From a virus: 41,264 nucleotides of DNA. Shown one piece after another: positions 1,233 to 16,549 of this stretch. Both the position numbers and the translations under genes were made by a program. A model generated the notes under the pieces. The model ran no database searches and was not told where the DNA came from. It worked only from the letters and a program-made list of their open reading frames with translations. The stretch covers positions 1-41,264 of the IMG/VR virus record IMGVR_UViG_3300015245_000722; one strand, given 5' to 3'. Position 1 is the first letter of the stretch. Each line of letters begins with the position of its first letter.

Positions 1233-1309
1233 CGCGGGGTGGAGCAGTCTGGCAGCTCGTCGGGCTCATAACCCGAAGGTCATAGGTTCAAATCCTATCC
1301 CCGCAACCA
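1233..1309 (+). tRNA. Initiator tRNA-fMet (anticodon CAU)
   Basis: The 77-base gene folds as a cloverleaf and encodes its CCA end (1307-1309). The anticodon loop reads CTCATAA. Two features mark it as initiator rather than elongator tRNA-Met: the unpaired C1/A72 at the top of the acceptor stem, and three G-C pairs at the base of the anticodon stem (GGG/CCC). It is intact although a prophage integrase ORF ends inside it, as expected when integration restores the 3' part of the tRNA. Confidence 0.95.
1266..1309. other. Probable attL in the 3' half of tRNA-fMet
   Basis: The integrase reading frame on the minus strand runs through the 3' half of the tRNA and stops at 1266-1268, in the anticodon loop. 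The last residues of the integrase (GIGFEPMTFGL) are therefore encoded by tRNA sequence. This is typical of an element inserted in a tRNA 3' end, so the crossover core should lie within 1266-1309. The core cannot be defined exactly because the right attachment site is outside the window. Confidence 0.6.
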
Positions 1310-2879
1310 ATCCCAGATACTGGCCGCCGGCGGCCAAGAGAAGCCGCTCCGGCCGGGTTTGGATCTCCGCGTAGATCTTCCCGTCCGACTCCTCCTTCAA
1401 GGTAATTTCGCCTAGCACGTCCTGAAGCGCAGCCCGCGCCCTTGGCGGGTCGGTTTCCAGTTCCGCTCCTAGTCTCATCAGCGCTTCCTTGTAACGCAGC
1501 TGCAGGGCGCTCACGGTGCCGCGCGAGGGCGCCTGGCGCGTTGCCAGGTCCCGGAGGGCCGCCTGCTCCCGTTCGGCCTCCTGCAGGCGTTCTCCTAGGC
1601 TTTGAGACCACCCTGCAGCGGCGACCGCGTCGACGAGGCGAGGGATTTCCTTGTCGAGCTCGGCGAGCCTCTTCCTTGCGCCCGCGGCCGCGGGCGCGCC
1701 CGTTCTCGCGCGCTCGAGGATCACCTGGTCGACCAGCCCCTGCAGCTCGACGATCGCGGCGGGCGCGAGCAGATCCTCGCGCACCACGGAGAGCAGCCGG
1801 GCATCGATCGCCTTTCGCCTGGCGTAGATCCCCGGGCAGACCACGGCTCCGCGATCTTTCCGCGCGGCGCAGCCGTAGGCGGTGCCGTTCACCGCGATCA
1901 CCGCTCCTCCGCATCTTCCGCACCGAAGCAACCCTCCGAATAGCGTCCGAGGCCGCGCGCCCTTGCCGCGCGCGCCGCCCTCTAGGCGCTTCCCATCGAG
2001 CCGCGCGCGCACCGCGCGCCAGGCCTCGTCCTTCAGGATCCGCAGCTCGGGCCGTTCCTCCGCGATCCATTCCGCGCGAGGGCGGTCGATGCGCTGCCGG
2101 CGGCCGCTGTCCGGATCCTTCACCCATCGCGATCGGTTCCACACATAACGCCCGACGTACAACTCGTTGTTCAGGACACCGCTGCCCTTGTTGGGGCTGC
2201 CATAGATCGCGGAGACTGCCCAGGTCCCGCCTCGAGGCGCCGACACGCGCCGGCGATTGAGGTTCTCGGCGATGCGCTGGCAGCTCCAGGACTCCGCGTA
2301 GCGCGAGAAAATCCAGCGTACGACGTCGGCTTCCTCCGGAAGGATCTCGAGGCGGTGGCCGATCGGTTCGCCTTTCGCGTCGACGCCGGCGAGCGTGGAG
2401 CGGTAGCCGTACGACAGGCCGCCGGCATGATAGCCGCGCGCGATCTGACCGCGCAGGCCGCGGTGAGTCTTCTTCGAAATATCGCGGAGCAATTGCTCGT
2501 TGAAGCTGCCGCGGACCGCGCGCATCATCTCGCGGCCCTCGGTCGCGGAGTCGTAGCCGTCGACCACGCCGATGATGCGTATGCCGCTGAACTCGAGGCG
2601 CCGCACCATGCGCTCCTGGTCGACCAGGTTGCGCGAGAAACGGTCGAGCGCCTCGAGGATCAGGACGTCGAAGCGCGCGGCCGCGGCATCGGCCATGAGC
2701 GCGCGCCCGCCGGCGCGCTGCTCGATCGGCATGCTGCCGGACACGCCCTCGTCGAAATGGATCGCGACAACTTCGAGATTCGCGGAGTCCGCCCGGGCGC
2801 GCCCGAGGCGGAGCTGGTCCTCAATCGACGTCGGCCGCTGCAGGTCGGTCGAGTAGCGGGCGTACAGTGCTGCGGGCAT
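1266..2879 (-). CDS. Serine recombinase (prophage integrase)
   Basis: This 537-residue large serine recombinase has an N-terminal resolvase domain with the catalytic serine in YARYS (S10) and the DRFSRN motif. A recombinase domain with GYHAGGLSYGYR and a zinc beta-ribbon (LRCGRCGG, then a Cys near GCAARKDRG and VCPG) follow, then a coiled coil. The start chosen is the ATG at 2879, with GGAG about 10 bases upstream; an ATG at 2888 is too close to that site. It is the last gene of the leftward operon, overlapping the preceding small gene by 59 bases. Its C-terminus is encoded by the tRNA. It very probably integrates and excises this prophage. Serine integrases at tRNA genes are less common than tyrosine integrases. 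Confidence 0.92.
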   Translation of the reverse strand: MPAALYARYSTDLQRPTSIEDQLRLGRARADSANLEVVAIHFDEGVSGSMPIEQRAGGRALMADAAAARFDVLILEALDRFSRNLVDQERMVRRLEFSGIRIIGVVDGYDSATEGREMMRAVRGSFNEQLLRDISKKTHRGLRGQIARGYHAGGLSYGYRSTLAGVDAKGEPIGHRLEILPEEADVVRWIFSRYAESWSCQRIAENLNRRRVSAPRGGTWAVSAIYGSPNKGSGVLNNELYVGRYVWNRSRWVKDPDSGRRQRIDRPRAEWIAEERPELRILKDEAWRAVRARLDGKRLEGGARGKGARPRTLFGGLLRCGRCGGAVIAVNGTAYGCAARKDRGAVVCPGIYARRKAIDARLLSVVREDLLAPAAIVELQGLVDQVILERARTGAPAAAGARKRLAELDKEIPRLVDAVAAAGWSQSLGERLQEAEREQAALRDLATRQAPSRGTVSALQLRYKEALMRLGAELETDPPRARAALQDVLGEITLKEESDGKIYAEIQTRPERLLLAAGGQYLGLVAGIGFEPMTFGL

Positions 2880-3000
2880 CGGTGGCATTCTCCACGTGCG
2901 AGGGCGGCGCGGCAAGTGGCGCCGCGGAGGGCTCCGCACGCTCGGCCGCGTCGACGATGCGCTCGGCTAGAAAACGCAGAAGGGCGGTGCGGTGGGTCAT
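2821..3000 (-). CDS. Small hypothetical protein upstream of integrase
   Basis: This 59-residue, alanine- and arginine-rich protein begins with an amphipathic segment (FLAERIVDAAERAE) and becomes Pro/Ala-rich. Its ATG overlaps the stop of the upstream gene (ATGA), and its 3' end overlaps the integrase start by 59 bases, suggesting translational coupling. I do not recognise the family. A role in integrase expression or directionality is possible from position only. Confidence 0.5.
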   Translation of the reverse strand: MTHRTALLRFLAERIVDAAERAEPSAAPLAAPPSHVENATDARSTVRPLLDRPAAADVD

Positions 3001-4496: not shown

Positions 4497-4687
4497 GCCT
4501 TAGCCTTTCGTGCCAGCGCATTCCATTGTTTGTCGCTCAGCCAGGTTCTCGTCTCGCACGTCCGGCACATGACGTGCATGATCGGTTCGCTCCCCATCTG
4601 CCGATTGAGCTTGAACACGGGTTCGCCTCCGTGGCCGCCATTTGCGACCCAGATGTGTTTACAAAGCGTTGTTGGACCTTGGGTCAT
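4493..4687 (-). CDS. Small zinc-site protein coupled to the reverse transcriptase
   Basis: This 64-residue protein has a CKH pair near residue 9 and a HVMCRTC block near residues 38-44, a likely one-zinc fold of Cys/His type. The end is basic (LARKAKA). Its ATG overlaps the reverse transcriptase stop (ATGA), and its own stop overlaps the next start in the same way. A role as a nucleic-acid-binding partner of the retroelement is possible from the coupling. It could equally be an unrelated phage early protein. Confidence 0.65.
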   Translation of the reverse strand: MTQGPTTLCKHIWVANGGHGGEPVFKLNRQMGSEPIMHVMCRTCETRTWLSDKQWNALARKAKA

Positions 4688-6027
4688 GAGGTTCTCCGGT
4701 AGGTCTTGGTCAGCTGGCGGTTCACGGCATGGCCGCGGGCGAGCAGGAGCCGCGCGAGCTGCGCGCGGTCGTTGTGGCTGTGCGAGGCCTGGCGCATCAG
4801 GCCGAAATAGCTGTTGCCGGCCTCGTAGAGGTCCTCGGCGGGCATCGCGGCGACGCGCTGGAGGGTGGCGCGCACAGTGCGCGGGCGGATCGAGCGGCGG
4901 TGCGGTTTGATCAGGTGTCCGGCGAAGTCGATGCCGCGGTCGATCGGCTGCAGGACGGTCTTGGACGGGTTGAGCCGCACCGCGAGGCGCTCGGCGAGCA
5001 GCGCCTCGATCTCGAGCCGCCAGGCGTTGAGCTGCGCCGGAGATTCGTGGAGCAATACGAAGTCGTCGACGTAGCGGACGTAATGCCGCGCGCGGAGCCG
5101 GTGCTTGACGTGCTGGTCCAGGACGTCGAGGTAGACGTTGGCGAAGAACTGGCTGCTCAAGTTGCCGATCGGCAGGCCCAGATGCGTCGGCTGGTTGTTC
5201 AGGCTCTTGTGCGGCGGCACGAGGGCGAGGCGCTCGGGCGGGCTCTGCACGTCGACGTCGACGCGCGGATCGTGGAATAGGATGCGCTCGGCCAGGTCCA
5301 TGAGCTCGGGCTCGTGGATCCGTGCGGCGAGCAGATCGCGGAGCTTGTTCTTGTCGATGCTGACGAAGAAGTTCGCCAGGTCGCATTTGAGGTAATACGC
5401 GGGCCGTTTCCAGTTCTGGGTGATCGAGCGGACCTTCGCCTCGAGGCGGCGCGCTGAATACAGCGTTCCCCGGCCGGGAATGCAGGCGCAACTGTCGGTG
5501 ATGAAGGCCCGTTCGAAGCGCTCGGCGACCGCGAGATAAAGATGATGGTGGCCGACGCGATCGCGGAAGGGCGCGGCCCAGACCTCGCGCGGCTTGGGGC
5601 GGGTGATGACGAAGCAGATCGAACGCCCGGGCGTATAGCTCCCGTTCAAGAAGGCATCGCGGAGCTCGGTCAGGTTCTCCTCGAGACGAGACTCAAAGGC
5701 GCGCGCGCTCGCGGTGGAGCGCTTGTTTCGCCGGCAGGCGAGCCAGGCTTCGAGCACGCGCGCGTAAGAAAAAACCGCATCGTTTCGATCTGCGGACCGC
5801 GCAACCCCGGTACCGATTGTCCTTGTGCCAGTTGTTCTGGTTGCCGTTGCCGAAGTTCTGGTACCAGGCGTAGTCGGAGTCGTTGGCGTACTGCTGCGGT
5901 CATTCGCGCTATCTATATTGCCCCGCCGAAGGCCCGCATCCTGGCGGCCGATCAGAGGGGAAACTGCGCCGGACGCGTCCCGGTCGCCGAAGAGATCCAG
6001 CTGGCCGGAGGTATCCGCGGTGCGCAT
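4684..6027 (-). CDS. DGR reverse transcriptase
   Basis: This 447-residue reverse transcriptase copies the template-repeat RNA and, with Avd, puts random bases opposite template adenines; the cDNA then replaces a variable repeat. Visible motifs are DLANFFVSID (from residue 216), IGNLSSQ (287-293) and the catalytic YVDD (319-322). The IGxxxSQ form is diagnostic of DGR enzymes; group II intron enzymes have QG at this place. The start at 6027 was chosen because GGAGG lies 8 bases upstream and no later in-frame ATG precedes the core. As a result residues 45-80 are encoded by the template repeat in another frame and are Thr/Gly/Pro-rich, probably an unstructured extension. Nearby Avd and TR/VR copies confirm the class. 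Confidence 0.93.
   Translation of the reverse strand: MRTADTSGQLDLFGDRDASGAVSPLIGRQDAGLRRGNIDSANDRSSTPTTPTTPGTRTSATATRTTGTRTIGTGVARSADRNDAVFSYARVLEAWLACRRNKRSTASARAFESRLEENLTELRDAFLNGSYTPGRSICFVITRPKPREVWAAPFRDRVGHHHLYLAVAERFERAFITDSCACIPGRGTLYSARRLEAKVRSITQNWKRPAYYLKCDLANFFVSIDKNKLRDLLAARIHEPELMDLAERILFHDPRVDVDVQSPPERLALVPPHKSLNNQPTHLGLPIGNLSSQFFANVYLDVLDQHVKHRLRARHYVRYVDDFVLLHESPAQLNAWRLEIEALLAERLAVRLNPSKTVLQPIDRGIDFAGHLIKPHRRSIRPRTVRATLQRVAAMPAEDLYEAGNSYFGLMRQASHSHNDRAQLARLLLARGHAVNRQLTKTYRRTS
5789..5893 (-). repeat. DGR template repeat (TR)
   Basis: The 105-base sequence, read on the minus strand from CAGTACGCC to GTCCGCAGA, matches two variable repeats at 6508-6612 and 7103-7207 except at adenines. 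Of its 29 adenines, 9 differ in the first and 13 in the second copy; no other base differs. In the variable-repeat frame it is rich in AAC (Asn) codons, which adenine mutagenesis turns into many residues without creating stop codons. It lies inside the 5' part of the reverse transcriptase gene, in a different frame. Confidence 0.95.
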
Positions 6028-6103
6028 GTCGGTGACCTCCGCGAAAGCGGAAGGCAGCGGCGCGACCAGATTGAAATTCGCGCGGGCGCGGCCGCCGTGG
6101 CGG

Positions 6104-6472
6104 TCACGCAGCGGGCGACGGTGCGGGTGCAAAGGTATTCCTCAGTGCGATGGTTTGCTTGCCGATCGAAGCCGTGATCGGGATGGATGCGGCAAAGTGC
6201 GTGTTGGTAAGCCAGCCCCCATCGCGGAGCACCCGCAGGATCACCTGGGAGATCTCCAGGTGATCGAGGAGCTGCTCGAAATGGGGGAGCTTGGCCTCGT
6301 CGCGGGCGACGTTCGCATGGCGCACGATCACCGGCATCCACAGGGACTCGTCCACCAGCCGCTCGCCGTACATCTGCTTGACGTCGCGACGAAGATGGAT
6401 CACCGTGCTGGCCACGAATTTTTGAAAATCGATGACCGCGCGGTAGAGCTCGGTGTCACTGTGCAAGCCCAT
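6104..6472 (-). CDS. avd: DGR accessory variability determinant (Avd)
   Basis: This 122-residue, mainly helical, basic protein matches the Avd four-helix-bundle family in length, in pattern (LYRAVIDFQKFVASTVIHL, then FEQLLDHLEISQVILRVLRD) and in place between the target gene and the TR/reverse transcriptase. Avd forms a pentamer that binds the reverse transcriptase and template RNA and is needed for adenine-specific cDNA synthesis. The C-terminal 25 residues are less helical. It starts 20 bases after the stop of the first target gene, with only a weak ribosome site. The gap to the reverse transcriptase start (76 bases) should contain the 5' part of the template RNA. Confidence 0.85.
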   Translation of the reverse strand: MGLHSDTELYRAVIDFQKFVASTVIHLRRDVKQMYGERLVDESLWMPVIVRHANVARDEAKLPHFEQLLDHLEISQVILRVLRDGGWLTNTHFAASIPITASIGKQTIALRNTFAPAPSPAA

Positions 6473-6492
6473 GAGCTACGCGAATGCCGGAA

Positions 6493-7062
6493 TTAGCGAA
6501 TGGGAACTCTGCGGACCGCGCAACCCCGGTACCGATTGACCTTGTGCCAGCCGTCCTGGCTGCCGTTGCCGAAGTACTGGCACCAGGCGAAGTCGGAGTC
6601 GTCGGCGTACTGCTCGCCAGACAAGTACCACGCGTCCTCGAATTGCCCGGGGGCGGCGTTGGCGAACTGAACCCGCTGCTCCTTGCGGTTGGGCATTACG
6701 AAGTCGTTGTGACCGTCGATCGCGAGGTCCTTCGCATACTGCTGAAGCTCCGCGAATGTGCCGCCGGCGTGATGGTGTTTCTTCTCGGCGCTGATCAGGA
6801 GATAGTCGGGCTTGCCATCCTGGCCGCGCATCAGGCCATGGAAAATCCCGCCCTGACTGTTGAAATATTCGCCGATGGGCGGAACGACTGACTTGAGCAC
6901 TTCGAAGAATAGAGCGGCCTGCGCGGACTTGAATTTTGTATCGCCGAGGCTCTTGGACAGTGCGTCGTAGTTCGAGCCTAGAGTTGGTTTCTTCGAGCGG
7001 ACGGTACTCCGCGCGCGTTTGGTTGGGCGCTTGCGCGCGGGCGTCTTGCGTGATTTTTTCAT
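6493..7062 (-). CDS. DGR target protein 1 (DUF1566/C-type-lectin-like C-terminus)
   Basis: This 189-residue protein ends in a variable repeat. Its first 30 residues are very basic (many Lys, Arg, Pro), which could bind nucleic acid or phosphate. The C-terminal half resembles DUF1566/Lcl-type domains of the C-type lectin fold, with DFVMPNRKE, a Trp-Tyr before the variable region and a final RGCAVRR. The variable residues, corresponding to TR codons 4, 8, 11, 13, 18, 20, 21 and 25, lie where DGR proteins bind ligand. No signal peptide is present. The start at 7062 has GAGGAG 8 bases upstream. The ligand and location (virion or cytoplasm) are unknown. Confidence 0.85.
   Translation of the reverse strand: MKKSRKTPARKRPTKRARSTVRSKKPTLGSNYDALSKSLGDTKFKSAQAALFFEVLKSVVPPIGEYFNSQGGIFHGLMRGQDGKPDYLLISAEKKHHHAGGTFAELQQYAKDLAIDGHNDFVMPNRKEQRVQFANAAPGQFEDAWYLSGEQYADDSDFAWCQYFGNGSQDGWHKVNRYRGCAVRRVPIR
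6508..6612 (-). repeat. DGR variable repeat 1 (VR1)
   Basis: These 105 bases at the 3' end of target gene 1 differ from the TR at 9 positions, all TR adenines (A to G six times, A to T three times, on the coding strand). The last 24 bases, including the palindromic GCGGTCCGC, are identical to the TR and probably contain the initiation-of-homing site. Confidence 0.95.
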
Positions 7063-7090
7063 CGGAAAATCTCCTCGAATGATCGAATGG

Positions 7091-7723
7091 TTAAATTTTG
7101 AATCTGCGGACCGCGCAACCCCGGCACCGACCGGCCTTGCGCCAGTCGTACTGGTGGCCGTCGCCGAAGTACTGGTACCAGGCGTAGTCGGAGACGCGGG
7201 CGTACTGCGTGGAGGTCCAATACACCGCGTCGGCCTCGAAGCACTCGGCGCCGCCTGCCTTGAAGATCTCGAGCGCGGTCTGTTCGGGATCCTTGGCCGT
7301 ATAGGGATGCCCCAACGGACAAGAGTGCAGGTTGATTCCGCTACGCGCCCATCGTGAGTTCTCCTCCGCGGAGGGTTTGAGCGCGCGATAGGCGATCTCG
7401 AGCTCGTCGAGCGCAGGCAGATACCAATCGTTCAGGTCGCCGATGTTGAGAGCCAGGACGCGCTTGGCGAGCTCGCTGCCGGCTTCGGCCATGGCAAGCG
7501 TGTTGGCGCGGCCATCGGACAGACTGAGGGCGCCGGTAACGTTGTTGTCGTACGGTCCCCAGGCCGTTGCGGGGAAGTCGCCGATGGCCTTGGGCGACTT
7601 GATCAGGCCATAGAGCGCTCCTCCGATCTGGATCGCGCCGAAATAGAAGCCGCCTTCCGCCGGCGCGCCGAGCGCGAATGGATGAGTAATGGCGTGCGTC
7701 CGGACTATAGTTGATGCATTCAC
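7091..7723 (-). CDS. DGR target protein 2 (DUF1566/C-type-lectin-like)
   Basis: This 210-residue protein ends in the second variable repeat. It shows a clear DUF1566-like course: DWYLPALDELEIAYRAL in the middle, YWTSTQYA just before the variable region, and RGCAVRR at the end. This fold is used by many DGR targets to present variable residues. A GTG start at 7723 was chosen because AAGGAA stands 4-5 bases upstream. There is no signal peptide. It starts 47 bases after the upstream gene, the second-largest gap in the leftward arm, but no clear promoter is visible there. With target 1 it shares a single TR, so both are diversified by one retroelement. Confidence 0.85.
   Translation of the reverse strand: MNASTIVRTHAITHPFALGAPAEGGFYFGAIQIGGALYGLIKSPKAIGDFPATAWGPYDNNVTGALSLSDGRANTLAMAEAGSELAKRVLALNIGDLNDWYLPALDELEIAYRALKPSAEENSRWARSGINLHSCPLGHPYTAKDPEQTALEIFKAGGAECFEADAVYWTSTQYARVSDYAWYQYFGDGHQYDWRKAGRCRGCAVRRFKI
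7103..7207 (-). repeat. DGR variable repeat 2 (VR2)
   Basis: These 105 bases at the end of target gene 2 differ from the TR at 13 positions, all at TR adenines, affecting codons 4, 5, 13, 16, 18, 20, 21, 23, 25, 26 and 28. Eight of the changed codons are Asn (AAC/AAT) in the TR. The pattern differs from VR1, so the two copies have been mutated independently. Confidence 0.95.
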
Positions 7724-7770
7724 GAGGTTCCTTTCTGAATAGGCACTACGAAGTTGGATGGACCTGCACT

Positions 7771-8052
7771 TCACCGCTGCTTCTCCAGATCCGGGAACTT
7801 GACCTCGATCACCGGCTCGGGCACGTCTTGCGGAAAATGTTCCTTGCGCCAGCCGCGGGCAAATTGGGCGAAGCGGAAGGCGGCGCGGACCTTGTCGTCG
7901 TGGAGGCCGGCGAGCAGGGCGCGGGCGGCCCACTCCTCGACGATCTTCGCGAAGAGCGGATCCTTTCCGCGGAGCACAAAGATCGGCTCCTCGTCGGTGG
8001 CGCGGTTCAGGCAGGAATTCGGATCCGCGATTTCATCGCGCTTGATGGCCAT
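7771..8052 (-). CDS. Hypothetical protein between PRTRC and DGR
   Basis: This 93-residue soluble protein is charged and helical (DPLFAKIVEEWAARALLAGL). The start is taken as the ATG at 8052, with AAGGAA about 8 bases upstream; a GTG at 8058 in the same frame is also possible. It overlaps the end of the ThiF-like gene by 20 bases, so it belongs to the same operon. Its size and the DP.FAKIVEEWAA pattern resemble small proteins often found beside PRTRC or phage early genes. Function unknown. Confidence 0.65.
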   Translation of the reverse strand: MAIKRDEIADPNSCLNRATDEEPIFVLRGKDPLFAKIVEEWAARALLAGLHDDKVRAAFRFAQFARGWRKEHFPQDVPEPVIEVKFPDLEKQR

Positions 8053-8869
8053 CGGCACGTTTCCTTTCTTTCGGGGGTGAAGGCCGCCGATATCCGAGCC
8101 GCGCCCAGGCCTTCGGGTCGATGGGGAGCGGAGCGGTGCGGCCGGTTGAGAGATTGACGAAGGCGCCGCACCAGCTGGTGCGGCCGTAGCGGAAGATCTG
8201 CCAGAGCAGCTGCAGCGCCGGCGTGACCACGGCCTGGTTGACGAACAATTCCTGGCGCTCGAGCGCCTGCGCTAGGCTGCAACTCGGGCCGTTCTGGCGA
8301 TCGAGGCGCTTTTGCGCGGTGTGCAGCTCGGGGTAGAGCTCCAGCACAGTGGGGAGCCGATACTCGAAGGCGGCATGCTTGGCGTTCCACGCCGGGATGC
8401 CGAGCACGACCTGGCCGTCGGCCGCGCGGTTGCCGAGGTCCATCCAGTAGAGCGGCTTGCGGTACGCCGCACGAAGGCGCTTGCCGATCGTCAGGCGCGA
8501 TCGAGCGCTGTCTACGCAGCTGATGACGATCTGCGGCCCGCCGCCGGTATTCGCGGTGCCGCGCTCGCCGAAGGTGAACTCGCAGGCTTTCCACTGCAGG
8601 CCGAACCAGGCATTGGTCCGCGTGATGAGGACCGCGGCTTTGTTGCGGCCGACGTCGGCCCGCGAAAAGAGCTGGCGGCCGAGGTTCGCCTCGGAGACGT
8701 GGTCGGGGTCGAAGAGGGCGACGTCGAGCCCCTGGTGGCCCAGGGCTCGGATCGCGGAGTCGAGCCTGGCGAGGCCCGAGAGCATCTGGCTGCCGTTGCC
8801 GCCGGCGCCGACCAGCGCGACAGTCGCGCGTTCGGCGAGCAGGCTCGGGTGGGTGGTGTGCTCGAGCAT
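8033..8869 (-). CDS. PRTRC system ThiF/E1-like protein
   Basis: This 278-residue protein has a nucleotide-binding GAGGNGS loop near residue 20, the E1-type NLGRQLFS and DVGRNKA motifs that bind ATP in the ThiF/MoeB/UBA1 fold, and SCVDSARSR after the central strand. These define the ThiF-like member of PRTRC (ParB-related, ThiF-related cassette). E1-like enzymes adenylate the C-terminus of a ubiquitin-like protein; here the likely partner would be PRTRC protein C. It begins with a TGATG overlap with the protein A stop. Activity in PRTRC systems has not, to my knowledge, been shown; the family assignment is firm. Confidence 0.85.
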   Translation of the reverse strand: MLEHTTHPSLLAERATVALVGAGGNGSQMLSGLARLDSAIRALGHQGLDVALFDPDHVSEANLGRQLFSRADVGRNKAAVLITRTNAWFGLQWKACEFTFGERGTANTGGGPQIVISCVDSARSRLTIGKRLRAAYRKPLYWMDLGNRAADGQVVLGIPAWNAKHAAFEYRLPTVLELYPELHTAQKRLDRQNGPSCSLAQALERQELFVNQAVVTPALQLLWQIFRYGRTSWCGAFVNLSTGRTAPLPIDPKAWARLGYRRPSPPKERKRADGHQAR

Positions 8870-9501
8870 CAGCGCTCTGCCCATTCGTCTTCGTCGACGA
8901 ACTGCCCGCCCGGCAGGCACAGCCGCATCTTCCATCGCGGAGCGTCGGTGCCCAGGCCGCCGAGCACGGCCGCATACTTGACTTCGCCGGCGTCGTCCTC
9001 GTCGTCGATCGCGGAGAAGAAGGCCTCCATCGCGCCGTGCGAATGCAGGTCCGCGACCAGGTGCTCGCCTTCCGCGAGCGCGGGGCGGATCAGGTCGAGG
9101 CCGCCCGGGGTTGCCTCACTCGCAAGCAGCGGGCGGTAGTCGAGCGTGTGGCCGCCCGATCCGTTGGGCTTCCAGGTGATCCATGCCGCGAACTCGTTCG
9201 GCATGGCTAGGTGCGCGTCGCGCTCGAACGGATCGAGAAGCGCGGTGAGCTGCTTCCAGTCGAAATCCAGGCGCGCGCCGATCTCGGGCGCCTGGCCGAA
9301 GGGCAGCGGCGCCTCCGCCGGGGCGACCGGCCAGACGATGCGCATCCACGGCCGGCGCAACTCGAGATAGACGCCATCCTCCGCGATCAGGTAGCGGTGG
9401 CCGTTATGCTCGAGCGGCGCGAGCTCGGAGAATCGCGGAACGATGATCGCCGGCGTGTGCGCCTGGAGTGCGCGGTCGCGCGGGTCGAGATCAGTCTGCA
9501 T
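8869..9501 (-). CDS. PRTRC system protein A (JAB/MPN-type peptidase)
   Basis: This 210-residue protein carries a full JAMM signature: H153-S-H155 followed by seven residues, Ser163 and Asp166 (HSHGAMEAFFSAIDD), the metal site of JAB/MPN isopeptidases. In ubiquitin-like systems such enzymes trim or remove the ubiquitin-like partner. The start at 9501 overlaps the protein B stop by 11 bases. Order (B, A, ThiF) matches known PRTRC cassettes. Catalysis is likely from the intact metal ligands, but the substrate is unproven. Confidence 0.85.
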   Translation of the reverse strand: MQTDLDPRDRALQAHTPAIIVPRFSELAPLEHNGHRYLIAEDGVYLELRRPWMRIVWPVAPAEAPLPFGQAPEIGARLDFDWKQLTALLDPFERDAHLAMPNEFAAWITWKPNGSGGHTLDYRPLLASEATPGGLDLIRPALAEGEHLVADLHSHGAMEAFFSAIDDEDDAGEVKYAAVLGGLGTDAPRWKMRLCLPGGQFVDEDEWAER

Positions 9502-10276
9502 CGCCCTCGCCCTTGTCCTTCTCCAGGCGGCGCGCGAGCCCCTGCAGCGTGAGATCGAGGGGCACGAGGGCTTCGACCGGGAAGCGATCGCCCCACGCAC
9601 GGTCGAGGCCCTGGCGCCAGAACGCGTAAGCGCCGCCCTTGTGATTGACCAGGCGATCCTTGCCGCGGATGTTCGGGTGCGTGAAGTTGGAATCGAAGAA
9701 CGCGCGCTCGTATTCAGCGAGTGCGGAGGGCGAAAGCTGCTCGGGCAGCCTGACGTTGCCCTCGCAGATCTCGCCGCTCGAGTAGACGTTGAAGTAAGGG
9801 GCGCGGCAGAGTTTCGTGCCCGGCGCCGGGCGGTTGGAATCGCGGAGCGCGAACACATGCCAGCCCCCGGATCCCACCGCGAACACCAGGGCGGGCTGCG
9901 GCGTGGAGCCCGAGCGCTTGCCGATGAGCTTGGCGGCGGTTTGGTCCTCCTCCTGGTCGCCGGCGGCAGCTGTGCGGGTATCGAAAAACACGGTGGTCTT
10001 CGCCGCGGGGCGCCACCAGATGATCGAGCGCGCGCCGAGATAGCAGAGTTCGGGGGGCACGAACCCGGAGAGGCTCGCCATCGCGCCGAGCTTGCGGGCG
10101 AGGTCGGCGCAGGCCTCCTTCGTGGCGGGGCGGCCGGCGCCAAGACGCAGGGCCGTGGGGTCGCCCTGGATATCGTGGAGCGTGGCGTAGGCGCCGGCGC
10201 CGCTCAGGTAGACAAGGATTGCCTGGCGCAGCTGCCAGAGCGGTTTCTCGGCGCCGGTGATGGCGACGGAGCTCAC
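9491..10276 (-). CDS. PRTRC system protein B (proposed E2-like)
   Basis: This 261-residue protein matches PRTRC protein B in length, order and motifs, such as ELCYLGARSIIWWRPA, a hydrophobic beta-region, and VGSGGWHVFALRDSNRP with PYFNVYSSGEICEGN. The family has been proposed, from computational work on prokaryotic ubiquitin-like systems, to be an E2-like fold (Prok-E2_D). The GTG start at 10276 overlaps the protein F stop (GTGA). It sits between F and A in a tightly coupled cassette. No experimental role is known to me. Confidence 0.82.
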   Translation of the reverse strand: MSSVAITGAEKPLWQLRQAILVYLSGAGAYATLHDIQGDPTALRLGAGRPATKEACADLARKLGAMASLSGFVPPELCYLGARSIIWWRPAAKTTVFFDTRTAAAGDQEEDQTAAKLIGKRSGSTPQPALVFAVGSGGWHVFALRDSNRPAPGTKLCRAPYFNVYSSGEICEGNVRLPEQLSPSALAEYERAFFDSNFTHPNIRGKDRLVNHKGGAYAFWRQGLDRAWGDRFPVEALVPLDLTLQGLARRLEKDKGEGDAD

Positions 10277-11256
10277 CGGGAGCCCTGCCTCACAGCGATC
10301 AGGGGGACCAGCCGGTCGATCAACCGGATGATCGCGAAGCGCCGCTCCATCTGCGCGATCCACGCGGGAATCTGGCGCGGTTGCAGGCAGAACCAGCCGA
10401 GCGTGTCGTTGCCTCCCATCTGTGAGACGTACTCCAGGTGGTCATCGCAAAGCCCGGGAAGCGGGTCTTTCGTGTTCCAGCGGAGCGCGATCGAAAAGGC
10501 CAGCGCCTCTCCCTCATCCTCGCCCGATGAGAAGGTCATATCGACCTTGTCGGCATGCCTGCGCGCGGCGCGCACCGCGTCGACGATGCCGAGCGTTAAC
10601 TCCGCGATCGTCCCGACCGGGCCGCGGCGCTTTGCCAGGCGCTCCAGCTTGCCGCGCGGCAGGATCTTGGGGAAGGTGACTTCCTCTGGGATCGCCTTGT
10701 CGAAATCGGCGCGCCGGAAAATGTCGAGATCCCCGACGTCTTCCCCGTTGTCCGCGGCTTCGGCAAGCATGTCTGTTTCGTCCATCTCGCCGCGCCAGTG
10801 ATAGTGGACGGCGAAGCCGAAGCCGATATCGGGGGTGAAGATCGGCATGGCCCAGACGTGCGCCTGGCCGATCGCAAAGAGGGCGCTTCGGGCGAGCCCC
10901 GGGGCCGCGCGCTCGATTTCCTTCCAGCGGCGCTCGAGGCACCACACCTGATGCCAGATTTCCTGGGGATCGTTGCTGACGAAGATGGTGAGCTGGCTGT
11001 CCGCGATGTTCTCGTCGGTATGGCCGGTGGCGACGTGCAGCGAGAAGTCGAAAACGCGGAGCCCCTTGGTCTGCTCGTCGAGCCAGGCCTTCAAGGTGTC
11101 CGCGAATACCATCTGCTCGAGCGGCGCCTTGCGGTGGGACGGCGCGACGAGCGGCCGCTTCTTGGCCAGCGCGATCGCGCACTGCGCGGCGATCGCATCG
11201 CTGCCGATGCCTTGATAGATCGCCGGCGCGCCGGCGAGCGACGGAAGGGCGAGCAT
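10273..11256 (-). CDS. PRTRC system protein F
   Basis: This 327-residue soluble protein lies just before protein B, the usual position of PRTRC protein F, and shows features of that family (an N-terminal LALPSLAGAPAIY segment, FVSNDPQEIWHQVWCLE, and VHYHWRGEMDE). The biochemical role is unknown. Its ATG overlaps the stop of a small upstream gene (TGATG), and its end overlaps protein B. The assignment rests on order, length and partial recognition rather than on a catalytic motif. Confidence 0.7.
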   Translation of the reverse strand: MLALPSLAGAPAIYQGIGSDAIAAQCAIALAKKRPLVAPSHRKAPLEQMVFADTLKAWLDEQTKGLRVFDFSLHVATGHTDENIADSQLTIFVSNDPQEIWHQVWCLERRWKEIERAAPGLARSALFAIGQAHVWAMPIFTPDIGFGFAVHYHWRGEMDETDMLAEAADNGEDVGDLDIFRRADFDKAIPEEVTFPKILPRGKLERLAKRRGPVGTIAELTLGIVDAVRAARRHADKVDMTFSSGEDEGEALAFSIALRWNTKDPLPGLCDDHLEYVSQMGGNDTLGWFCLQPRQIPAWIAQMERRFAIIRLIDRLVPLIAVRQGSR

Positions 11257-11447
11257 CAGGTAAGCGGCGGGAGGAGCTCGGCGGGTGCCGTGAGCGGCTC
11301 GCCCGATTCGGATCGAGCGAACGCGACCCAGGCGCGGAACGCCGGCGCGTGCTTGTCGACCTCGACGGGACTGATCGCGTTCGGCAGCTCGTCGACGCCG
11401 CGGCCGGCGGCGATATCGCGGAGACGGACGAGAAGGTCGGGCTTCAC
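11256..11447 (-). CDS. Small hypothetical protein in PRTRC cassette
   Basis: This 63-residue protein begins MKPDLLVRLRDIAAGRG, probably one amphipathic helix, and ends Leu/Pro-rich. It is linked by a four-base overlap upstream (ATGA) and a one-base overlap to protein F downstream (TGATG). No family is recognised. Confidence 0.55.
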   Translation of the reverse strand: MKPDLLVRLRDIAAGRGVDELPNAISPVEVDKHAPAFRAWVAFARSESGEPLTAPAELLPPLT

Positions 11448-11641
11448 GCGGTGGCCCAGGCGATGAAGCGGCTACACCAGCTTGGCGCTGCGGCGGGATG
11501 CCGATAGAGGGGCACTACGCGTTCGTTGTGCGAAGGCTGGCCCTTGGCGACCATGTCCTCGGCGATGCGTTGACTCTTCCAGATGCCGACGAAATAACCT
11601 TGGTCGTTCTCGACGGCGTAGCCGTGCGGCGCGGTCTTCAC
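11444..11641 (-). CDS. Small hypothetical protein in PRTRC cassette
   Basis: This 65-residue protein contains YAVENDQGYFVGIWKSQRIA and ends in a hydrophobic tail (WCSRFIAWATA). The pattern ...VVPLYRHPA is common in small phage early proteins of unknown function. Four-base overlaps on both sides place it firmly in the operon. Confidence 0.6.
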   Translation of the reverse strand: MKTAPHGYAVENDQGYFVGIWKSQRIAEDMVAKGQPSHNERVVPLYRHPAAAPSWCSRFIAWATA

Positions 11642-11856
11642 GTGATCAGCTTTTCTCGCAGGGCAATCGCCACCGCGTGGGTATTGGTCTTTGCGTCAAG
11701 GCTCGCTCGGATCAGCACCATTCTGTTGCTGTAGGCGGGGCGCTTTAGGCCGATCGCCATACTGACCTCGGCGAAGGTCCTGCCGTTGGCGAGCATCTGG
11801 AGGAGCGCCTTGTCGCGCGAGGAAAGTTCGCTCTTGCCGGTCGGCTTAGAAGTCAT
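11638..11856 (-). CDS. LuxR/GerE-type helix-turn-helix protein
   Basis: This 72-residue protein is almost only a LuxR-type DNA-binding domain. SSRDKALLQMLANGRTFAEV matches the scaffold helix, GLKRPAYSNRM the recognition region, and HAVAIALREKLI the final helix. There is no receiver or ligand domain. The start at 11856 has GGAGG five bases upstream; an earlier ATG at 11868 overlaps the protein C stop and is also possible. It sits inside the PRTRC cassette between C and F. It could regulate the cassette or a late promoter, which is inference. Confidence 0.72.
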   Translation of the reverse strand: MTSKPTGKSELSSRDKALLQMLANGRTFAEVSMAIGLKRPAYSNRMVLIRASLDAKTNTHAVAIALREKLIT

Positions 11857-11867
11857 GGAACCCTCCA

Positions 11868-12098
11868 TCACCAATCGATGACTGGCGCGGCGCCCTTCGT
11901 GCCCACCGGCCGCCGGAACGTGTAGACGAGCTTGCCGTCTTTGTTCTCCGGGCCCTCGATCGCGGCGTTGGCGAGCTCGGGGTAGGTGGCGGTGTAGAGG
12001 TCGCGGACTTCTTCGGCGGAATACTGCGCGCCCGGGTCGACCAGGTCGACGCTGTTGTAGCGGAACGCGCGCTCGAGCGCGCGGGTTTCGAGGGTCAT
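11868..12098 (-). CDS. PRTRC system protein C (proposed ubiquitin-like)
   Basis: This 76-residue protein has the typical pattern of PRTRC protein C: FRYNSVDLVDPGAQYSAEEV, then LYTATYPELANAAIEGPE and VYTFRRPVGTKG. Computational studies place this family in the ubiquitin-like superfamily (Prok_Ub). The C-terminus here is GAAPVIDW, with no exposed di-glycine, so conjugation as for ubiquitin would need trimming or may not occur. The ATG overlaps the protein E stop (ATGA). Confidence 0.85.
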   Translation of the reverse strand: MTLETRALERAFRYNSVDLVDPGAQYSAEEVRDLYTATYPELANAAIEGPENKDGKLVYTFRRPVGTKGAAPVIDW

Positions 12099-13126
12099 GG
12101 CTGCTTGCTTCCTTCCGTGGTGAGCAGGTCGGCGGTTTTCGCGTCCGCCCGTGCGGGGGCCTCGGGCGGCCGCTGGACGATGTAGCGATCCTTCTCGATC
12201 TTCACGACGCGGTATTCGCCGAACTCCGGATGCGTGTAGGTCTCGCCCACGGCGAGGTCTTCATCGCAATTGCCGAGCAAGGTGCCGGTGTCGGTGCGCA
12301 CGGTGCGCGCGAGGCGATCAAGTGGAAAGGGCCACTTTCCGGCGGGATCGATAGTGGTCTTCGAGGTCTTCATGGTGGGTTCCGGGGCAGCCGCGGCGGT
12401 CCGGGAGCTTTGCGAGGAGGGAGACTCCGCGGAACGAGACGACGAGGGAGGCGGCGCGTCGGCGCGCGGCGCCCCGGAAGACGGTGTCTTGCCTTGCTCG
12501 AGGAATTCGTGCCAGCCGGTCCACAGCTTCTCGAAGCGGCGGCCGGTCTTGTTGGCGTTCCTGCGCGCCCAGGCGATGAACGCGGCGCGATTGAGGTCCT
12601 TGCCGGTGGTGAGGTAGGCGCGCAGATCCTCGAGGCACTTGTCCTTTCCCGGAAGGCTCGATCGCGGAGTGGTGACCTTCCTGGCCGCATTCGCCTTCTT
12701 AGCGGAGGCCGCGCTCGCCGGCTTCGCCTGGGCGGGCGCCTTGGGCTTAGGCGCCTTCTTCGCCTTGGCGGCCTTGGGCGCGCGCGGCACCTTCGATTTT
12801 TTCGCCGCTTTGGCGGGCTTGGGCGGCTTGGGCGGTGTCGCCTTGGCTACCTTGGTCTTTGCGGCCGCGATCGCCTCGGTCGGGACCTTGATCGACGCGC
12901 GCAGATCGTTGACCTTCTCCGCGTAGTCGGCGATCGCCTTGGGCAGTTCGGCGTCGAGCTCCTCGGGGGTGCCGGTCGCCTCGATCGGCTTGCTGAGCGC
13001 GGAGGCTTCCTTCGCATCTTTCCCGGGCTTGGGCATGATGATCACGCGGAGTCGCGCGCCCTGGGGCGTGATGATCATGCTCATGGGGGTATGCCGGGCG
13101 ACGTCGTAGAGCGACTTGAAGAACAT
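12095..13126 (-). CDS. PRTRC system protein E
   Basis: This 343-residue protein has an N-terminal segment like PRTRC protein E (MFFKSLYDVARHTPMSMII, then IMPKPGKDAKEASALSKP and a TPEELDAELPKAIADY helix). The middle (about residues 110-175) is a Lys/Ala/Pro-rich stretch like histone H1 tails, which could bind DNA or RNA. The C-terminal third is Ser/Pro-rich and then beta-like (VGETYTHPEFGEYRVVKIEK). It is longer than I expect for the family because of this linker. It starts nine bases after the upstream gene. Confidence 0.75.
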   Translation of the reverse strand: MFFKSLYDVARHTPMSMIITPQGARLRVIIMPKPGKDAKEASALSKPIEATGTPEELDAELPKAIADYAEKVNDLRASIKVPTEAIAAAKTKVAKATPPKPPKPAKAAKKSKVPRAPKAAKAKKAPKPKAPAQAKPASAASAKKANAARKVTTPRSSLPGKDKCLEDLRAYLTTGKDLNRAAFIAWARRNANKTGRRFEKLWTGWHEFLEQGKTPSSGAPRADAPPPSSSRSAESPSSQSSRTAAAAPEPTMKTSKTTIDPAGKWPFPLDRLARTVRTDTGTLLGNCDEDLAVGETYTHPEFGEYRVVKIEKDRYIVQRPPEAPARADAKTADLLTTEGSKQP

Positions 13127-15238: not shown

Positions 15239-15832
15239 CTAAAGCCCTCGCTCCCTGGGGCGTTCCGAGGCCTTCCAAGCTTCGCGGAGAGCGCTTGCTT
15301 GAGGTAAATCTACGAAGACTTCGCCGCTATCTAAGTTGTTCAATGTGGACGTGAAAGTGACAACCAATCCCGGCAATTTCCAGCGCGCCTCGATGGACTG
15401 GAATCTAGCGCCCATGCGATTTTGTACTGGCAGCCTATCGACTTTGGTGGCCTGGCCGTATTTTTCGGTCAGCTTGTTGAGGACCAGTTCCTGTGTGTCT
15501 ACGCCATCCGTAAGAAAGTGGACTCCAATTAAGCGACCGGCGCTCTCCAATATGAACATCCGCCAATTCTTCACAATGGGCGGCATCTCGTCTTTTGAAA
15601 ACACTATACGACGCGGAGGGTTTGCGTATCCGCGGAGCGGCGCCGCGTCCTGAACGCAGGTCCGCGGAGGGAAGGCGTCATAGATCTTGGTGTTTCCCGC
15701 GAAGCCATCGTACGAACATTCCGGCAGGTTGATAGCTTCGCCCAAGACGAAACCGAAAATGGACTGTGTCTCCGCGAATGCTGCCGGCGAAATCAGCACG
15801 CAGCACCATAGAGCCGAGATCAGGATCCTCAC
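15239..15832 (-). CDS. Secreted protein coupled to repressor (candidate lysogenic-conversion gene)
   Basis: This 197-residue protein has a signal peptide ending in AFAE (residues 1-21) and four later Cys residues that could pair in the periplasm. Its ATG overlaps the repressor stop (ATGA), so it should be made whenever the repressor is made, that is, in the lysogen. This is the usual setting for a moron: a superinfection-exclusion or host-altering factor. The N-terminal FGFVLGEAINLPEC pattern is seen in exported proteins of unknown function. The role is inferred from place and export signal only. Confidence 0.75.
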   Translation of the reverse strand: MRILISALWCCVLISPAAFAETQSIFGFVLGEAINLPECSYDGFAGNTKIYDAFPPRTCVQDAAPLRGYANPPRRIVFSKDEMPPIVKNWRMFILESAGRLIGVHFLTDGVDTQELVLNKLTEKYGQATKVDRLPVQNRMGARFQSIEARWKLPGLVVTFTSTLNNLDSGEVFVDLPQASALREAWKASERPRERGL

Positions 15833-16221
15833 GCGTGGGGATCCTTGTCGGATTTTTTTCCCAGCGAACCGAGAGCTGTCACTTGGCGAATCGCTATGGG
15901 TTTGAGATATTCCGGAAGGCGTTGCATTGCGACGTTCATCTGGTCGGAATATTGATCGGCTGCGAGTGAGTCCGAACGCTTAGGGCCGCGGCCGGAAATA
16001 AGCCATTCGGTATGGCATCCAGCCCAGCTGGCGATGTCAGCGCACCGCACGAGCGTGGGCATGCCTTCTCCTTCTAGCCATTTTCTGGCGCCCTTCTGTG
16101 AGACCTTAAATATCTTAGCTACTGTGGCCTGCCGATTTTTTCCCTTGGGAGGCACGCCCATATCGTCGCAGATCTCATTGAGTCGTGTGGCGAACCCCTG
16201 AAGTTGCTCTTTGGTATCCAT
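15829..16221 (-). CDS. CI-like immunity repressor, short form
   Basis: This 130-residue protein has an N-terminal helix-turn-helix (RQATVAKIFKVSQKGARKWL, residues about 30-49), then ADIASWAGCHTEWLISGRGP typical of phage repressor N-domains. There is no S24 peptidase domain, so it should not cleave itself when RecA is active. The ATG at 16221 was chosen because the domain begins there; a longer frame from 16302 would cross the operators. No clear ribosome site precedes the ATG; operator OR3 abuts it. It is divergent from the Cro-like gene. Confidence 0.82.
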   Translation of the reverse strand: MDTKEQLQGFATRLNEICDDMGVPPKGKNRQATVAKIFKVSQKGARKWLEGEGMPTLVRCADIASWAGCHTEWLISGRGPKRSDSLAADQYSDQMNVAMQRLPEYLKPIAIRQVTALGSLGKKSDKDPHA

Positions 16222-16236
16222 GTTACCAAAGGTAAC
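16222..16236. promoter_or_regulatory. Operator OR3
   Basis: GTTACCAAAGGTAAC is a perfect inverted repeat directly before the repressor ATG. Its centre lies 25 bases from OR2. Repressor or Cro bound here would block the repressor's own expression, as OR3 does in lambda. Confidence 0.65.
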
Positions 16237-16246
16237 CTTGTGCGGA

Positions 16247-16261
16247 AGAACAAGCAGTTCT
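16247..16261. promoter_or_regulatory. Operator OR2
   Basis: AGAACAAGCAGTTCT is a perfect inverted repeat of the half-site AGAAC, which also forms one half of OR1, OL1 and OL2. It is centred 24 bases from OR1 and overlaps the first base of the PR -35 box. Confidence 0.6.
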
Positions 16262-16290
16262 TGACCGGAAGTTACTTTTGGTTCTAGACT
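16261..16290 (+). promoter_or_regulatory. Rightward early promoter PR
   Basis: -35 TTGACC (16261-16266) and -10 TAGACT (16285-16290) are 18 bases apart. Transcription would start near 16297, only about four bases before the Cro-like ATG, so that mRNA is nearly leaderless. OR1 fills the spacer. Confidence 0.78.
16271..16285. promoter_or_regulatory. Operator OR1
   Basis: GTTACTTTTGGTTCT fills the spacer of PR, in the same place and direction as OL1 in PL, with one base different. It combines a GTTAC half-site (as OR3) and a GTTCT half-site (as OR2). Confidence 0.7.
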
Positions 16291-16300
16291 GCGTTGCATC

Positions 16301-16549
16301 ATGGACGTGAATCCTCTTGCCCGAGCGATCGAAATTGTCGGTTTGTCGACCCTGGCCCAGAAGCTCGGGGTGACCTACCAGGCCATACGGAAGTGGCAGC
16401 GCCGTGGGCGCATGCCCAGGACCGAATGGACCGGCGAAACGAACTATGCCGGCACGATCGAGCAGTTGACCGATGGGCGCGTGACAAAAATATCATTGCT
16501 CGCCGAGTGGTCGGAAAGCTCGTCGCCCGCAACGGCTGTGGCCGCATGA
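16301..16549 (+). CDS. Cro/YdaS-like regulator
   Basis: This 82-residue helix-turn-helix protein (IEIVGLSTLAQKLGVTYQAI, then RKWQRRGRMP) belongs to the YdaS/Cro-like group used as the second regulator in many lambdoid phages. It is the first gene of PR and divergent from the repressor. Its 5' leader is very short and no ribosome site is visible, suggesting leaderless translation. It probably competes with the repressor for the OR sites. Confidence 0.82.
   Translation: MDVNPLARAIEIVGLSTLAQKLGVTYQAIRKWQRRGRMPRTEWTGETNYAGTIEQLTDGRVTKISLLAEWSESSSPATAVAA

Follow-up and report, generated by a model that had tools for sequence, protein, structure and literature searches.

A ParB-less PRTRC cassette of temperate phages with the parts of a ubiquitin-like conjugation pathway

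The PRTRC cassette, described from plasmids and integrative elements (TIGR03734-TIGR03742), was named nearly two decades ago and still lacks a known function. In 2006, Iyer, Burroughs and Aravind predicted a type 6d operon which, in the portion of their account drawn on here, combines a ubiquitin-like protein (Ubl) with a C-terminal Gly and an E2 with a downstream, absolutely conserved His (PMC1779556). Here we analyse such a cassette in the IMG/VR virus record IMGVR_UViG_3300015245_000722, whose whole length of 41,264 bases we call the window; IMG/VR records are predicted viruses and may be fragments. Measured against the same portion of that account (PMC1779556), the window shares with type 6d the Ubl with a C-terminal Gly (a Prok_Ub protein whose domain ends in GTKG, with a tail of seven amino acids (aa) in the window), the JAB peptidase with an N-terminal alpha+beta domain (DUF2016) and an intact metal site, the E2-like protein B with a Cys and a downstream His, the E1-like ThiF and an alpha-helical partner (alpha-hel2), and by these features the window cassette is type 6d. 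Judging from its sequence, the locus is a phage-adapted, ParB-less PRTRC cassette (type 6d operon) that probably encodes a self-contained ubiquitin-like conjugation pathway.

The genes for E, C, F, B, A and ThiF lie in that order on the minus strand at 8033-13126, and all six proteins score above the NCBIfam PRTRC cut-offs, a profile search that bears out the usual gene order given in a preliminary description of this DNA. The genes, with bit scores set against the cut-offs, are as follows.

12095..13126, minus strand: PRTRC protein E, 343 aa (TIGR03741, 56.4 bits against 37.95; PF19556, PRTRC_E, 29.6 against 26)
11868..12098, minus strand: PRTRC protein C, ubiquitin-like (PF14454 Prok_Ub, 8e-25; TIGR03738, 91.4 bits against 45.95)
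11638..11874, minus strand: small helix-turn-helix gene (LuxR/GerE-like) between C and T, with sub-threshold GerE/autoinducer-regulator matches
11444..11641, minus strand: open reading frame (ORF) of 65 aa between C and T, without a Pfam or NCBIfam match
11256..11447, minus strand: component T, here an ORF of its own (63 aa) that ends at the F start; homologue of the C-fused tail of the nearest relative, L013
10273..11256, minus strand: PRTRC protein F, alpha-helical (TIGR03742, 102 bits against 58; PF14456 alpha-hel2, 3e-11)
9491..10279, minus strand: PRTRC protein B, E2-like (TIGR03737, 212 bits against 131; PF14460 Prok-E2_D, 3e-39)
8869..9501, minus strand: PRTRC protein A, DUF2016 and JAB/JAMM peptidase (TIGR03735, 186 bits against 102; PF14464, 2e-16; PF09436, 5e-26)
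8033..8869, minus strand: PRTRC ThiF/E1-like protein (TIGR03736, 287 bits against 145; PF00899, 2.5e-14)

The starts of B (GTG near 10279), A (ATG at 9501) and ThiF (ATG at 8869) were set from overlaps. The E domain covers residues 2-98 of protein E, the remainder being a long extra C-terminal region. Between C and F there are three small genes, the last of which, component T, was absent from the gene list of the preliminary description. PHROGs holds no family for any of the six cassette proteins, beyond a weak partial match of ThiF, which means that the usual phage catalogue misses the cassette. Sequence searches of the PDB with C, ThiF, A and B gave no relatives, and a scan for promoters and terminators stayed at chance level.

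The carrier of this cassette is a phage. The record encodes a serine integrase, a CI-like repressor, terminase subunits including the large subunit, a portal of the lambda type (PF05136) and a major head protein, as had been proposed; its genes place the cassette on a phage, not on a plasmid or integrative element. Neither the PRTRC ParB family (TIGR03734) nor the generic ParB_N (PF02195) has a match anywhere in the 41,264-base record, and three plasmid controls match in the same searches. The earlier impression that no ParB gene is visible is therefore upheld, and we file the window as a ParB-less variant and not as canonical PRTRC because ParB was tested for and is absent.

This absence was first taken as an oddity of one phage, a view that the wider collection does not support, since ParB absence is the rule among phage-borne copies. 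A ThiF pattern search, with a query that included the window, gave at least 112 viral contigs with a related ThiF, and we examined the best 80 of the 112. For this query, a nine-sequence alignment proved too diverse and a four-sequence alignment worked; a search with protein C alone returned no viral relatives. There is no ParB nearby in 69 of these best 80 viral loci, and 66 have the full E-C-F-B-A-ThiF set without a nearby ParB; three have ParB upstream and six a ParB-like ORF downstream. Among the genome loci, where presence was judged within ~10 kb, ParB lies upstream in 55 of 80. When 46 virus records were searched whole, either ParB model matched in four, two of which exceed the PRTRC ParB cut-off; the ThiF of one of these two falls, along with two further viral ThiFs from ParB-bearing loci, among Sphingomonad plasmid cassettes.

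The three loci with PRTRC ParB upstream (L090, L091, L092) are IMG/VR contigs whose ThiFs cluster with Sphingomonad plasmid cassettes; the two searched whole both have an HK97-type portal. These three could be phage-plasmids or prophages on plasmids. The six with a ParB-like ORF downstream of ThiF (L071, L073, L079, L086, L087, L089) are Burkholderia-type phages, and in the two searched whole (L086 and L089) this ORF is a 280-aa frame that scores under the ParB family cut-offs.

The end of the C domain is conserved in the family. In the window the protein terminates in VGTKGAAPVIDW, where the domain ends VGTKG and a 7-residue tail, AAPVIDW, follows. The preliminary description had remarked on a terminus without di-glycine; the terminus is as it stated, yet it is no defect, as GTKG ends the C domain in 148 of 162 loci, and GVKG, GAKG, GRKG, GGKG or GSKG does so in 13 more. 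Forty C proteins stop directly at this boundary, the others extending by a few residues or by a long tail. A missing di-glycine is thus no lesion, since a single glycine, that of GTKG, is the family rule, and the tail beyond it is a putative precursor extension or a second protein fused to C. In the 217-kb Bacillus jumbo phage KLEB27-3 (L005, 2676-3425), a single gene carries a head-to-tail array of four PRTRC-C domains, in which every domain closes with AGVKG and the Met of its successor comes next, a layout that implies cutting after the glycine and resembles polyubiquitin. This gene adjoins a weakly B-like, an A-like and a ThiF-like gene, and no second example of tandem C repeats was found in the phage or viral collections.

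The second protein is component T, a small protein fused directly after GTKG in 112 loci and present as a separate ORF in 50, in most of the unfused loci just before F, as in the window. The fused tails, of 50-98 residues, fall into several families. Among loci without a long C tail, 40 of 46 have a separate T ORF, similar in length to the tails, that begins at most 18 nucleotides from the C stop and reaches the F start; shuffling the gaps gives this layout in 6.8% of cases, and reverse complements give it in 6 of 46. Separate T ORFs of phages are homologous to the fused tails of their relatives (E 1e-10 to 1e-24), the pairwise ratios of nonsynonymous to synonymous substitution rates (dN/dS) of T, 0.14-0.66, indicate constraint, and the C-terminal residues are alike across families (e.g., RLLPPSIALPLML, RCLAPSVNHAVLP). 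The window T (11256-11447), which two small genes separate from C, matches the fused tail of L013 with a phmmer E of 1e-5 against all ORFs and 2.5e-9 against tails only, and both its position and its C-terminal LLPPLT are typical of T. The T proteins tested fall into no Pfam or NCBIfam family, and the window T matches none in PHROGs; six ParB-bearing reference plasmids have no gene listed between C and F, in a gene table known to be incomplete. From these comparisons we regard T as a previously unrecognised, unannotated component of the cassette. Fused and separate forms have switched at least seven times on a 63-row tree and 14 times on a 172-row tree, and this recurrence suggests two separate products in either case, C and T, which fits a cut after GTKG by the JAMM protein A.

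The residues required of such enzymes are conserved across the phage copies. Protein A of the window has an intact JAMM motif, HxH-x7-S-x2-D (HSHGAMEAFFSAID; HSHG-x6-S-x2-D), as was initially reported, and the motif is kept in 80 of 80 viral A proteins. The E2 cysteine of B was found by pattern in 79 of 80 viral proteins, the 80th sequence being truncated. In an alignment of 57 B sequences, an Asn and Cys172, eight residues apart, are invariant and the downstream His201 is near-invariant; the window B has the corresponding N-x7-C (NVYSSGEIC) and a downstream THPN motif. All 80 viral ThiFs have GxGGxG and N-x-x-R-Q, and their cysteine stands in PSC[S/G] wherever inspected (a PSCS pattern was too strict, the listed misses that show the region reading PSCG); in the window ThiF the GxGGxG nucleotide loop is accompanied by a PSCS cysteine. 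With families over cut-off and these catalytic residues kept, the E1-, E2-, JAMM- and ubiquitin-like parts first noticed on this phage are supported.

The cassette is common to phages of different build. Among the 46 whole virus records, a lambda-type portal is over cut-off in 16, and an HK97-type portal is present in 26, as well as in the isolated Burkholderia phage BgVeeders33 (OK665841), which has the full cassette without ParB; one early-region cassette is therefore shared by phages with different head modules. In a careful ThiF tree, 16 phage and nine chromosomal rows without ParB form a phage core of 25 rows (support 100/99), near the base of which the window ThiF groups with L013 (99/97) and L014 (95/87). 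The C domain of the window and L013 is conserved while their ThiFs are 65% identical. A single origin of all ParB-less phage cassettes is present in the best careful tree at a support of 75/28; the fit is weakly supported and we do not claim it. At another locus (L010), three Deinococcus genes beside ThiF were first read as A, B and C, a reading that alignments overturned for at least C and A; L010 was excluded as a profile reference.

Position in the genome bears on the possible role. In the plan of the viral loci, a tyrosine integrase comes after the cassette and an S24 repressor before it on the same strand, with divergent replication genes (RepO, DnaB or primase) beyond the repressor. The window keeps this plan, its integrase being a serine recombinase and its replication protein of the DUF5906/VapE type; the cassette is located between the CI-like repressor and the integrase.

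15829..16302, minus strand: CI-like repressor, upstream of the leftward operon (phrog_2328 transcriptional repressor, 7e-8)
1266..2939, minus strand: large serine recombinase (integrase; PF00239, PF07508, PF13408), overlapping the end of tRNA-Met
1233-1309, plus strand: tRNA-Met, adjoining the serine integrase

By analogy with lambda, this position would be the leftward early region or arm, in which case the most likely task of the cassette is to aid establishment in the host or to modify it, and not partition. Carriage on both plasmids and phages, together with the early-arm placement, speaks for a function that helps the element to become established or to persist, modification of host proteins included; this role is the weakest point of our account.

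Several neighbouring features deserve mention. A gene for a di-haem cytochrome c peroxidase at 1-1152, at the left edge before tRNA-Met, is probably host DNA, which supports a prophage integrated at tRNA-Met. The protein encoded at 3639-4496 matches the helical domain of the 5-hydroxymethyldeoxyuridine (5-hmdU) DNA kinase (PF18723, 6e-41), which suggests that a pathway for hypermodified bases is encoded near the integrase. An apparently intact diversity-generating retroelement (4684-7933) follows immediately downstream of the cassette, with a reverse transcriptase (4684-6132, minus strand), an Rfam RT-15 RNA (5897-6120, minus strand) and a template-like repeat (5757-5917), of which two Lcl_C-domain genes contain the two variable copies (6476-6636 and 7071-7231); over their shared core, the repeats differ mainly at template adenines. 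RT-15 RNA is over the gathering score in three of nine other viral PRTRC records tested (behind L014, L015 and L033), so that cassette and retroelement co-occur in some relatives.

Taken together, the parts suggest the following pathway. Protein C would be a ubiquitin-like modifier made with residues past its final glycine, and the JAMM peptidase A would cut it after GTKG, exposing this glycine. ThiF would then adenylate C and bind it through a thioester to the PSC[S/G] cysteine, and the E2-like B would take C on the cysteine of GxICxG and hand it to target proteins, from which A may also take it back. The residues removed would usually be T; in the window, where C and T are already separate genes, only the 7-residue tail would be left to trim. 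Modification of host or rival-phage proteins by the cassette, as first proposed, is possible. We judge the chances to be about even for a broader proposal, in which many temperate phages have in their early region a working Ubl conjugation system, with a modifier fused to T and freed at GTKG by the phage's own JAMM protease, that remodels host or rival proteins and amounts to a viral ubiquitin system in bacteria.

Some observations weigh against a conjugation pathway. The searchable literature reports no conjugate, cleavage or expression for any PRTRC system. ThiF-like proteins may also act in sulfur transfer, for which a C-terminal Gly is just as suitable, and an uncleaved C-T fusion might itself be the functional form. 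AlphaFold models of B and F (predicted local distance difference test, pLDDT, of 88.5 and 86, respectively) gave no significant match in Foldseek searches of the PDB; for B, the E2 fold is therefore predicted from its Pfam family, its motif and the order of its secondary-structure elements. For F, the eleven top fold matches are PolF-type diiron enzymes, but at E ~0.2 and a template modelling (TM) score of ~0.2; we did not use this assignment, which is a weak lead to an enzymatic role.

The same parts admit a prophage-borne antiphage system, in which C would be attached to the virion proteins of phages that superinfect, as in Bil, giving superinfection exclusion. The four predicted activities are those of Bil, and the prophage site beside the repressor is one where lysogenic accessory genes often lie. 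PADLOC models of Bil- and CBASS-type E1-E2-JAB defence detect weak partial similarity of ThiF to E1-E2 models, but none of them specifically matches A, B, C, E or F. Moreover, the cassette sits in the early replication and lysogeny arm, not at a typical cargo site, no Cap-type DNA-damage regulator was identified, and plasmids that have ParB widely carry this cassette too, a distribution more suggestive of a role for the element than of defence. We consider this reading possible but unlikely.

It is doubtful, too, that the cassette acts on the replication or partition machinery of its element, with ParB as substrate or partner on plasmids and a phage replication protein in its place in phages. 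The ParB upstream of 55 of 80 genome loci would accord with this, as would the RepO/DnaB or primase genes that the phage cassette faces across the repressor. However, profile searches did not find ParB in the phages, and the replication genes vary, from RepO/DnaB in many phages to the DUF5906/VapE type in the window. A sulfur-carrier pathway, with a thiocarboxylate on the GTKG glycine of C for phage or host biosynthesis and A as processing peptidase, appears improbable. It would agree with the ThiF family match and the single C-terminal Gly, and sets of JAMM, ThiF and ThiS of such kind are described in the portion of the 2006 account drawn on here (PMC1779556), yet an E2-like protein with an invariant Cys is always present and the cassette comes without sulfurtransferase or metabolic genes. 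Least credible is a plasmid cassette captured by a phage and drifting as decayed cargo, as might be indicated by the lost ParB and, in the window, by the 7-residue remnant after GTKG and the pair of small genes that parts C from T, for all ORFs are intact and over cut-off, catalytic residues are kept in 80 viral loci, and the C domain is conserved between the window and L013 despite their diverged ThiFs.

Should conjugation be confirmed, ubiquitin-like signalling in bacteria would have a major home in temperate phages. The phage lineage shows that the PRTRC cassette can do without ParB and places the likely end of the modifier at GTKG, and the natural fused and separate versions of C and T make for a sharp prediction, namely that the JAMM protein A cuts after GTKG. 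BgVeeders33, as a small isolated phage, is suited to genetics of the cassette.

In comparison with known systems, the window is like the PRTRC cassette of plasmids and integrative elements in having E, C, F, B, A and ThiF over cut-off in the same order, and differs in being phage-borne, in lacking ParB, in lying between a CI-like repressor and an integrase, and in having T split from C by two inserted genes. The portion of the 2006 account of type 6d drawn on here lists bacteria and, for this type, makes no mention of phage carriage, a fused T or tandem C repeats (PMC1779556). BgVeeders33 has, like the window, a complete E-C-F-B-A-ThiF set without ParB and a C with a tail fused after GTKG, but the phage has a contractile tail, an HK97-type portal and a tyrosine integrase; its genes are mostly annotated as hypothetical, and those of the cassette are not mentioned in the papers found on this phage. 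Bil (BilABCD), according to a review, is a set of Ubl, E2, JAMM and E1 that matures and conjugates the Ubl, the same activities as predicted for the window set, but its BilA contains a pair of Ubl domains, its E1 (BilD) is larger, and F, E and T have no counterpart. The resemblance to Bil-like conjugation proposed at the outset hence holds at the level of parts and goes no further, the PADLOC comparison giving a weakly shared E1 domain. Eukaryotic ubiquitin is made fused to a ribosomal protein or in tandem (polyubiquitin) and is released at its final glycine. The C-T fusions and the tandem C domains resemble this make-up, although the tails are unrelated and the cleavage in PRTRC is the predicted one. 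What is new here is the breadth of the cassette in phages, the GTKG boundary with its natural precursors, component T, and one tandem-repeat gene.

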